In this document: piece after piece, positions 53,775 through 56,354 of the stretch
How positions within the stretch are numbered: the stretch's first letter is position 1
Layout of the letters: each line of letters starts with the position of its first letter
NCBI GenBank assembly: GCA_030431635.1
Contig: JAUIIL010000004.1
Location: forward strand, 62,001 to 126,000
Reading direction: 5' to 3'
From: Bacteriovoracia bacterium
GTDB taxonomy: Bacteria; Bdellovibrionota; Bacteriovoracia; Bacteriovoracales; Bacteriovoracaceae
DNA length: 64,000 nucleotides
Made by a program: the position numbers and the translations under genes
The notes under the pieces: generated by a model
Databases searched by the model: none
The model's input: the letters and a program-made list of their open reading frames with translations, nothing else
Told to the model about the DNA's origin: nothing

Positions 53775-54587
53775 CTAGGTGTCACGTATTTGAGAGGAGG
53801 AGAGTCCTTCAAAAACGTGGTGGCCCAGCTCTTTGATGATAAGTTGAGGGTTTATTTTCTTGTATTTATCAATTTGAGCGCTCTGAAGCTCTTTGTCGGT
53901 TTCTCTGGAGACAACAAAAATTTGCTCGAGTAATCCAATAAGCTCCTCTGCGTTTTTCCAGCTCTCAAGGCCAACAAAAGAGTCATGGCCAAGTAACAGA
54001 GAAAGGCCCACATTTTTTTGTTTAATAGGGCGTAGCCAATCCACTGTCGCTCTTCTTTCTTCAGAACCCCAAAAACCAGGAAAAAGACGAATTTGAGGAA
54101 AAGTTTTTTGAACATAGAGCATTTTTTTGAAATTTTCCCAAAGCTTAGGATTGGGTGCCTCTTTTTGGGGATTAAGATCAGCAACAACAACGAGAGAATC
54201 TTTTTGAGGGCAAAGCTCTATACAAGCTTCATGCCCAGCATGCCAAGGATTAAAACTCCCTCCATAAAAAAGAAGAGATTCTTTAGGAAGGCAGAGAAAT
54301 TCAGAAAAGACTTCTCCTACTTTAGGAATAAATGTGGGCATAAATTCATAAAGACTTCCAAGTGAGAGGAAAACCTTTTTGGCCATTTCATCTCCTAGTC
54401 TTAAAAAAAGAAAGGATTGAAACTTAAACCCAGGTAGATGAACAGATCTATCATTAGTAAAAGTTAAAGCAAACTCATTATTCACAATCACGTGAGGAAG
54501 TTCAGGTGTTAAATCAGGAATTTCTCCAGCTGAATTACTTAAAAGAAGAGCCGAATCATGAGGAGAATAAATAATAATATGCTTCAT
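53775..54587 (-). CDS. Nucleotidyltransferase, NadD-like, with N-terminal extension
   Basis: Adenylyltransferase-type protein of 270 residues. After an unfamiliar N-terminal part (about residues 1-95) comes the HxGH class core: FYGGSFNPWHAGHEA near residue 107, then VVADLNPQKEAPNP, and at the very end a LSSSQIRDT motif equivalent to the ISSTxIR of NadD. It stops right after that motif, lacking the final helices of standard NadD. The start overlaps the sfsA stop (ATGA). Likely substrate nicotinate mononucleotide, by class only; other nucleotidyl-transfer activities are possible. Confidence 0.72.
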   Translation of the reverse strand: MKHIIIYSPHDSALLLSNSAGEIPDLTPELPHVIVNNEFALTFTNDRSVHLPGFKFQSFLFLRLGDEMAKKVFLSLGSLYEFMPTFIPKVGEVFSEFLCLPKESLLFYGGSFNPWHAGHEACIELCPQKDSLVVVADLNPQKEAPNPKLWENFKKMLYVQKTFPQIRLFPGFWGSEERRATVDWLRPIKQKNVGLSLLLGHDSFVGLESWKNAEELIGLLEQIFVVSRETDKELQSAQIDKYKKINPQLIIKELGHHVFEGLSSSQIRDT

Positions 54588-55279
54588 TCAAAAACCAGTG
54601 GAATTCTTTTGTTCACTATAATTTCGTTTTCATTCATTTTACATTGATAAGGAAGAATCTCAACTCCAATCTCTTGGGCCTCTTTGAGTAAGAGGGCGTA
54701 TTCGGGATCAATTTCATATGCTGGAGCAAATTTATCGACATCTTCTCGTTGAATAATGAAAAGCATCACGGCCCGAATGCCTTGTTCTTTAAGGTTGATA
54801 AGTTCACATAAATGTTTTTGTCCTCTCTCACTAACTGAGTCTGGGAAGCGTGCCAGTCCATCACTGTCTTTAAGGGTGACATTCTTTACTTCAACAAAAC
54901 ATTTATCACCATTTTTTTCGAGCAGGATATCAATACGACTTTCTCCGACATCAACTTCTCTCTTAAGAGAGGTATAGCCTTTTAGTTCAGGAATAATTTC
55001 TTTTTCTATAGCTTCTTGAGCGAGTGAGTTAGGTCTTGCAGTATTGACACCAATCCAAGTGAGACCGTTATGAGTTAGTTCAAGAGAGTAGGCGAGTTTA
55101 CGTTTAGGATTACTGCTTTTAGAAAGACTTACTTTCCAACCTGGTTCCCAACAACTTTTCATACTTCCCGTGTTGGCCGTATGAGCAGTGATTACTTCTC
55201 CGTTTTCAAGTTCGATATCACAGAGAAATCTTTTGTAGCGTTTGTGAATAATACCTTTTACAGGTGGAGGAAGTTGCAT
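54584..55279 (-). CDS. sfsA: SfsA family protein (DNA/RNA nuclease-like)
   Basis: 231 residues matching SfsA in length and pattern: KRYKRFLCDIELENGE at the N-terminus (OB-fold-like), AHTANTGSM, YSLELTHNGLTWIGVNTARPN, and the nuclease-like core IDILLEKNGDKCFVEVKNVTL (PD-(D/E)xK-like Asp, Glu, Lys), ending with FPDSVSERGQKHL. Named for sugar-fermentation stimulation but the fold resembles restriction-type nucleases; exact role unclear. Overlaps the NadD-like gene by 4 bases. Transcription would start inside the inverted repeat at 55335-55399. Confidence 0.95.
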   Translation of the reverse strand: MQLPPPVKGIIHKRYKRFLCDIELENGEVITAHTANTGSMKSCWEPGWKVSLSKSSNPKRKLAYSLELTHNGLTWIGVNTARPNSLAQEAIEKEIIPELKGYTSLKREVDVGESRIDILLEKNGDKCFVEVKNVTLKDSDGLARFPDSVSERGQKHLCELINLKEQGIRAVMLFIIQREDVDKFAPAYEIDPEYALLLKEAQEIGVEILPYQCKMNENEIIVNKRIPLVFE

Positions 55280-55334
55280 TAATACCTCATCGTTTTAGTC
55301 AGAGCTAATGTACAAAGAGAGCTTTTTTAAGTCA

Positions 55335-55399
55335 AACTTGACAGTTTCTTACTTTAATTCTGATAAAAACTTAAAGTAAGAAACTGTAAGTTGTGTCAA
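55335..55399. promoter_or_regulatory. Facing divergent promoters under a long inverted repeat
   Basis: Perfect 17-bp inverted repeat (55341-55357 with 55371-55387), extended by 5 more bp with one bulged G (55335-55339 with 55388-55392). Each outer flank holds TTGACA: plus strand 55338-55343 with GATAAA after 18 bases (55362-55367), and minus strand 55399-55394 with TTTAAG after 18 bases. The two promoters overlap. Confidence 0.5.
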
Positions 55400-55466
55400 A
55401 TCCTATTATCCCATTGAATATTAATAAGATCTTAATTTTATCCACATAATTGGAAAAGGATTTCCG

Positions 55467-56354
55467 ATGAAAACAATCTTAATGCTTTCTCTCGTTCTTT
55501 TTTCTCTGAGTGCTTTCTCGGAGACTTATGATGTTAATCTTCCACTTGTTATCTATGGAGAAGATGATAGACACGATGGAATTGCTTATGCGGATCCTGT
55601 CTTTGTAAGACTTGCTGATTCAACAGCAGGGATGATTTCTCCAGCAAACCTTAAATACTCAGGAGACACAGTTGAAATTGATGCTTCTTCTTTTCAAAGA
55701 AGAATGGGGATGTGTGCTTCAGAAAGATTTTCTCAGCAACCAGCAGCAGCTAATTGCTCTGGGTTTCTTGTAGGAAAAGATCTTCTGGTGACAGCAGGGC
55801 ATTGTATTGAAAGTCAGTTGGATTGTGACTCTTACTTATGGGTTTTTAATTATGAAATGAATCGGAGAGGCTCAAATAAAATTGCACTTAAAACAAGTGA
55901 TGTTTACAAGTGTTCTGAAATTATTGAAAGGAAACTTGTTGGAGTTGAAGGAGCACAAAACGACTACGCTCTTATCCGTCTTGAAAGAGAAGTGAAGGGT
56001 GTGAAGCCTTTAAAAATTAGACAAGAGAGCGATGGAGAATTACAAGTTGGTGAGGAATTGGTTGTTATTGGACATCCAAGTGGGTTACCGACAAAAATTA
56101 CTGATGGGGCGATTGTGAGAAGTAGAAGTGAGAAGTTTTTCTCAGCGAATCTTGATACCTATGGTGGAAATTCAGGTTCGGCCGTTTTTAATGGAAGAAG
56201 TGGCTTAGTAGAGGGGATACTCGTTCGTGGTGCTAGAGACTATATTTGGGATTACCAAGAAAATTGCCGAGTCTCTAATATAGTGGCCGATGACTTTGGT
56301 GGTGGAGAAGAAGTTACCTATATTACCAATATTGATTTCCTTAAAAATCTCTAA
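55467..56354 (+). CDS. Exported trypsin-like serine protease
   Basis: Secreted endopeptidase of the S1 chymotrypsin/V8-like fold. 295 residues with signal peptide MKTILMLSLVLFSLSAFS. Catalytic triad in order: TAGHC (His near 112), NDYAL (Asp near 166) and GGNSGSAV (Ser near 236). Two Cys pairs are suggested (CASERFS with NCSGFLV; TAGHCIE with DCDSY). GGAT-type Shine-Dalgarno (AAAGGATTT) 5 bases before ATG. A strong terminator follows, so it is a single-gene unit with its own promoter in the inverted-repeat region. In a predatory lineage a secreted prey-digesting role is plausible but not shown. Confidence 0.9.
   Translation: MKTILMLSLVLFSLSAFSETYDVNLPLVIYGEDDRHDGIAYADPVFVRLADSTAGMISPANLKYSGDTVEIDASSFQRRMGMCASERFSQQPAAANCSGFLVGKDLLVTAGHCIESQLDCDSYLWVFNYEMNRRGSNKIALKTSDVYKCSEIIERKLVGVEGAQNDYALIRLEREVKGVKPLKIRQESDGELQVGEELVVIGHPSGLPTKITDGAIVRSRSEKFFSANLDTYGGNSGSAVFNGRSGLVEGILVRGARDYIWDYQENCRVSNIVADDFGGGEEVTYITNIDFLKNL

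Follow-up and report, generated by a model that had tools for sequence, protein, structure and literature searches.

The intergenic region between the divergent genes for the nuclease SfsA and a trypsin-like serine protease of a Bacteriovoracia bacterium contains a perfect inverted repeat whose arms, to judge from their sequence, are a directional tandem-repeat operator present twice in opposite orientations, each copy lying just upstream of an outward-facing promoter candidate. The protease-facing copy is conserved in sequence and position in a family of Bdellovibrio-like bacteria, is associated with peptidase genes, and recurs as an inverted pair. We consider it fairly probable that the right arm is a class II operator of the OmpR/PhoB type, that the left arm is its inverted duplicate, and that the pair acts mainly on the protease. 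The kind of operator, a tandem repeat of the sort bound by response regulators, appears to be already known; the doubled, inverted form is what seems unusual. Throughout, the window denotes the entire 64,000-nucleotide stretch of DNA that was analyzed.

An inverted repeat between two divergent genes

The sfsA gene (54584-55279, reverse strand) was assigned to the DNA/RNA nuclease SfsA by Pfam (PF03749/PF17746) and NCBIfam (TIGR00230, above the cut-off), and its 11 SfsA relatives come mostly from Halobacteriovorax, Halobacteriovoraceae, Bacteriovoracaceae, Bacteriovoracales or Bdellovibrio. The divergent gene (55467-56354, forward strand) encodes a presumably secreted trypsin-like serine protease of 295 aa (Pfam Trypsin_2, 3.7e-20), whose N-terminus is signal-like by eye and which weakly resembles glutamyl endopeptidases and a Do-like protease in the PDB. 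Between the two genes lies the repeat (55341-55387), which consists of a left arm, ACAGTTTCTTACTTTAA (55341-55357, reverse strand, pointing to sfsA), a spacer or loop of 13 nt (55358-55370), and a right arm, TTAAAGTAAGAAACTGT (55371-55387, forward strand). The arms are complementary at 17 of 17 positions, and the predicted fold of 55336-55400 comprises 21 base pairs and one bulge.

Among the 18 perfect inverted repeats with arms of at least 12 bp and loops of up to 30 nt in 464 kb of this genome, this one is the longest; the next nine have arms of 14-16 bp, and six of these have loops of 1-2 nt and are terminator-like. One Markov-shuffled copy of the same 464 kb yielded three inverted repeats, the longest of 13 bp. 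The 17-bp repeat is not due to chance. Its perfect arms could suit a mobile or REP-like repeat, but the arm is single-copy in the 3.3 Mb assembly, where the next best match carries two mismatches, and matches with up to three mismatches are about as numerous as in a backwards control (57 versus 47), so that this explanation was rejected and has a negligible probability.

An RNA hairpin, serving as a terminator, a leader stabilizer or a small RNA, is highly improbable, even though transcription would give a very stable predicted fold (-21.2 kcal/mol, z -5.2). The stem is not G+C-rich and no T-tract is present, so an intrinsic terminator was rejected, and the sole terminator-like site in the scan (55611-55630) lies within the protease gene. 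The predicted transcription starts leave the repeat outside the transcripts, and the family conserves one arm but no hairpin. A known RNA family was likewise rejected, as the best Rfam match reaches 26.6 bits against a gathering score of 84 and the matches are sub-threshold hairpin look-alikes only. Conservation of one arm alone, with an inverted partner at seven of 70 sites, also disagrees with a single palindromic operator for one dimer, and a LexA-type palindrome was dropped because the conserved unit is a direct repeat.

The promoter scan reports two promoter-like sites, both outward (55335-55307, reverse strand, and 55421-55450, forward strand), where 1.6 are expected by chance. The former is the sfsA promoter candidate, TTGACT-17-TACATT (55307-55335, reverse strand; scan score 9/12), which lies outside the repeat and has a partial counterpart in the aligned region of the related genome G034. 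For the protease, the presumed -35 box is TTGTGT (55391-55396, 3/6 to consensus), placed by the offset at which the family has TTGnCA, and the presumed -10 box is TTGAAT (55414-55419, 4/6), which follows after a 17-bp spacer, a spacing at which the family shows a TAAT peak; TATTAT (55404-55409) is an alternative -10. The presumed protease promoter (TTGTGT/TTGAAT) is weak and absent from the promoter-scan output.

The first-pass annotation had described perfect 17-bp arms with a bulged extension between the divergent genes for SfsA and a secreted protease, and both the structure and the gene arrangement are confirmed. A genome search for the arm sequence, which it named as a check, returned a single copy, which is against the mobile or REP-like alternative. 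Its inward TTGACA hexamers exist on both outer flanks (55338-55343, forward strand, and 55399-55394, reverse strand). The facing, overlapping and competing promoters built on them are not supported, because the best inward -10 on either strand matches at 4/6 positions and the scan reports no inward promoter. What it proposed of the repeat as a whole, a regulator-binding element in the divergent intergenic region, is very probably correct.

A probable operator, conserved upstream of secreted peptidase genes

The right arm (55370-55393) was compared with the regions upstream of homologous protease genes in the Bdellovibrio-like family (n = 30, the best match per genome in 30 of the 47 genomes with a match). 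The aligned element upstream of the trypsin-like protease is tGTAAGAAnnTGTnAGTTGnCA, often with nnTAAT 17-18 bp further on. It contains the direct repeat GTAAG-N5-GTnAG, whose period is 10 bp and in which G-T-n-A-G is conserved at offsets 0-4 and 10-14; in the window, family profile and core matrix place the tandem repeat, as GTAAG-N5-GTAAG, at 55376-55390 (forward strand). With up to two mismatches, the element is present on the forward strand of 22 of the 30 upstream regions, including that of the window, on the reverse strand of none of the 30, and in 0.17% of shuffled regions. Since the pattern was drawn from these same 30 regions, the family-wide search weighs more as a test. Between promoter and start codon, four of the 30 regions (L021, L022, L027, L028) share a leader word, ACGGCAAT.

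Within 129 family genomes, the exact 18-mer pattern GTAAGANNNTGTNAGTTG has 42 matches, in 36 genomes, compared with three when it is read backwards. Forty of the 42 matches were examined: counting the window, 32 lead into this protease and five into subtilisin-like genes (two identified by Pfam, the others by likeness), and three (L206, L220, L306) lead to neither. In a sample of the phylum, the exact pattern was found in 27 of 97 family genomes and in two of 193 others, the control outside the family also giving two. A 40-site profile, built without this genome and applied to 124 family genomes at E 0.1, yielded 117 matches in 77 genomes, the other 47 having none. Chance alone would account for about 12 of the 117, and matches to the training sites are a consequence of how the profile was built.

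Excluding the sites already examined, we inspected 40 further profile matches, mostly in the order of E-value. The forward gene encodes this protease at 16 of these sites, another trypsin-like protein at two, and a subtilisin-like protein at five (four of the five checked by Pfam); on the reverse side, the gene encodes this protease at two sites and one conserved secreted-looking protein at four. Eleven of the 40 are without a clear peptidase link. The conserved protein, found in genus g3 (L280, L281, L287, L301), is 75-90% identical among the four loci and has CDQHGQGG near its N-terminus; the reverse-oriented operator lies 88-115 bp upstream of its gene, and a small unrelated gene begins 23-24 bp from the operator on the forward side. 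The L280 product has no Pfam match. By eye, locus L195 of the genome studied here resembles these loci. In another arrangement (L271, L272, L279, L304), the operator is flanked by a subtilisin-like gene and the divergent gene of a second conserved, secreted-looking protein (36-51% identical, about 434-452 aa); L267 and L270 appear similar. We propose that this Bdellovibrio-like family has a small secreted-peptidase regulon of which the operator is a part.

The promoter context was assessed, in the loci analyzed, at 70 distinct sites that match the pattern with no more than one mismatch. TTGnCA immediately follows the repeat in 25 of the 70, and TAAT occurs at offset 40-41 in 27, which amounts to a -35/-10 arrangement with 17-18 bp spacing; the boxes of the window itself (TTGTGT, TTGAAT) are weak.

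The right-arm operator ranks first genome-wide (E 0.003) and first in the window with a profile built without this genome, and top among the 926,992 positions scored in 464 kb with a 17-column core matrix. After it, the full profile ranks C16:19359 (E 0.009), C1:74748 (0.019) and C4:319748 (0.11), each reverse-oriented and upstream of a gene whose product has a signal-peptide-like N-terminus by eye. The second and third core-matrix sites in the 464 kb precede two tandem, secreted-looking subtilisins (Peptidase_S8; G000:C1:73189-74766, L083:13189-14767), each of which has a reverse-oriented operator copy some 86 bp ahead of its start; the third site receives just E 6.2 with the full profile. 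Because the subtilisin sites are reversed relative to their genes and one of them is weak, a single fixed geometry of activation fails to cover all sites. In this genome, a loose version of the pattern (up to two mismatches) gives 20 matches versus 32 for the backwards control, without enrichment, and therefore only the strong sites are credible.

The sfsA-facing copy and the recurrence of inverted pairs

The left arm carries an sfsA-facing operator copy with a weaker second half, GTAAG-N5-GTCAA(G) (55338-55352, reverse strand), identified by core matrix and full profile. The copy matches the right arm even at about seven positions where conservation in the family is poor, two of them in N5 and five upstream, and would most simply have arisen by inverted copying of the right arm. 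If a regulator were bound to both arms, it could activate the protease from the right arm and sfsA from the left through the outward promoters. Such a bidirectional switch is unlikely in our assessment. The left copy does rank 5th of the 926,992 positions scored by the core matrix and adjoins the sfsA promoter candidate from just upstream, and a parallel is offered by L271, L272, L279 and L304, where a single operator separates a subtilisin gene from a conserved gene that diverges from it. However, its second half-site is displaced by one base, its -35 box is shifted by 2 bp, and the full profile, which places it second in the window, scores it barely above background (10 bits, E 0.084, the next match having 9.7 bits).

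The sfsA loci speak against a two-gene switch as well. In a comparison of 120 other sfsA loci, in which some genomes were counted twice and some loci ended at contig ends, G034 was the sole relative found with the divergent protease-sfsA order. The alignment of its intergenic region with the one studied here scores 64; none of 1000 shuffles exceeded 48, and the best unrelated region reached 51. Its protease-facing site, which belongs to the 40 training sites, has a core score of 21.1, and it has no sfsA-facing operator, the best core score being -5.4. Apart from G034's, none of the 120 loci has a close homologue of this protease adjacent or a near copy of the element beside sfsA (the next best has mismatches at 5 of 18 positions); distant trypsin-like matches (21-26% identity) lie beside sfsA in four of them. 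As G034 and the other sfsA loci are without the left copy, it looks newly gained. Control of sfsA by the element is thus possible, and the idea in the first-pass annotation that one regulator could switch both genes survives to that extent, without comparative support from the sfsA loci.

Inverted doubling of the operator is not confined to this window. An inverted second operator with up to two mismatches lies within 60 bp upstream at seven of the 70 sites, versus 0.46 expected, whereas a second operator in the same orientation was found at none of the 70, versus 0.60 expected. The gap between the two operators is 10 bp in L217-L219 (one genus) and in L022, 7 bp in L229, 1 bp in L288, and 23 bp in this window. 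At the six other loci, no divergent ORF of at least 70 aa starts within 800 bp, and because these pairs are without a near divergent gene, a feature of protease-type promoters explains the pair better than a two-gene switch does. In L217, L218, L219 and L022, the protease gene is preceded by a gene for a similar small protein (~130 aa).

The left arm could also be a non-functional by-product of template switching, that is, of inverted copying, the right arm alone being of consequence, an explanation that we find somewhat unlikely. The identity of the arms over the poorly conserved positions and the lack of the copy in G034 would suit it, as would the length of the perfect arm, which is 17 bp here and at most 9 bp around the other 69 sites. 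The window carries the most perfect inverted operator pair seen. Against the by-product stands the presence of an inverted second operator in four other genera with diverged spacers; no protease gene was found beside one of these pairs, that in L288.

We return to the reading set out at the start, an OmpR/PhoB-type operator with an inverted duplicate. Here, the right arm would be a putative operator abutting the protease -35 box, to which two regulator subunits may bind head-to-tail, and a response regulator of the OmpR/PhoB family bound there would recruit RNA polymerase by class II activation. The left arm would be an inverted duplicate of the operator, probably from a local copying event, and would add a second dimer, so that two dimers might bind back to back. 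The inverted pair would probably act mainly on the promoter of the protease gene, and sfsA might be weakly controlled as well.

Known operators and candidate regulators

Direct repeats with a 10-bp period placed against the -35 box are typical of activators among the response regulators of the OmpR/PhoB family. At Pho boxes, the tandem-repeat operator of the class II activator PhoB adjoins or replaces the -35 box and the activator contacts RNA polymerase; their period is 11 bp and their core CTGTCAT. The operator described here is a direct repeat within the 10-11 bp period characteristic of the OmpR/PhoB type and resembles the Pho box in its position by the presumed -35 box, but it has a period of 10 bp and the pentamer GTAAG. 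The targets of CpxR, the regulator of the Cpx envelope-stress response, include degP, a gene for a trypsin-like protease.

The closest known pattern is the CpxR box, given as GTAAA-N5-GTAAA in PMC12802237, a direct repeat of pentamers that likewise has a 10-bp period. Identity with it was rejected, since the operator here has G instead of A as the fifth base in both halves, followed by a conserved A; it also differs in abutting TTGnCA and in the small regulon of secreted peptidases. The FliA-dependent attack-phase promoters of Bdellovibrio bacteriovorus, TTAAG-N16-CCGATA, which are said in PMC3627812 to control some proteases, are unrelated in sequence, the promoters here being sigma-70-like, with -35 and -10 boxes and an adjoining operator.

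On this likeness, the regulator is probably of the OmpR/PhoB type, and it would activate rather than repress. That the element binds a repressor, or a regulator from outside this class, is doubtful: no regulator was tied to the sites and these occur in both orientations, which is in favor of this alternative, but repeats of this period against the -35 box, as in the CpxR box, are typical of OmpR-family activators.

Secreted hydrolases presumably sustain the predatory bacteria of this group. The conservation of the operator points to a regulator of digestive enzymes in Bdellovibrio-like bacteria, and its recurrence before secreted peptidase genes would provide a handle for isolating that regulator directly. 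We suggest, with slightly less than even confidence, that Bacteriovorax-like predators share a dedicated switch, an as yet undescribed response regulator that acts through GTAAG-N5-GTnAG and turns on secreted prey-digesting peptidases, and that the operator is doubled in inverted form in some lineages, where a pair of opposing dimers would assemble into a single enhanced or dual-facing complex. In B. bacteriovorus, proteases such as Bd2269 peak around prey exit (PMC12546842), and the FliA consensus is found in two thirds of the mapped attack-phase promoters (PMC3627812). Judging by titles and the beginnings of abstracts, none of the literature matches listed, which leave subscription journals mostly uncovered, presents a protease operator from Bacteriovorax, Halobacteriovorax or Bdellovibrio.

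Neither genome comparison nor the neighbors of the operator linked any protein with a Trans_reg_C domain to the sites, response-regulator-like neighbors being present at just three of 137 loci. This genome encodes eight Trans_reg_C proteins, seven of which have the size of response regulators. In a comparison of five genomes, which included nine of the 11 domain matches of G022 and 10 of the 15 of G010, three response regulators (candidates L311, L312 and L316) have reciprocal best matches in G034, G022, G010 and G031; all three thus occur in G031 too, although no site in G031 reaches E 0.1. One protein of the genome, 425 aa long (G000:C6:21624-21800, L318), carries its Trans_reg_C domain at the C-terminus and is 78% identical in G034 and 53% identical in G031.
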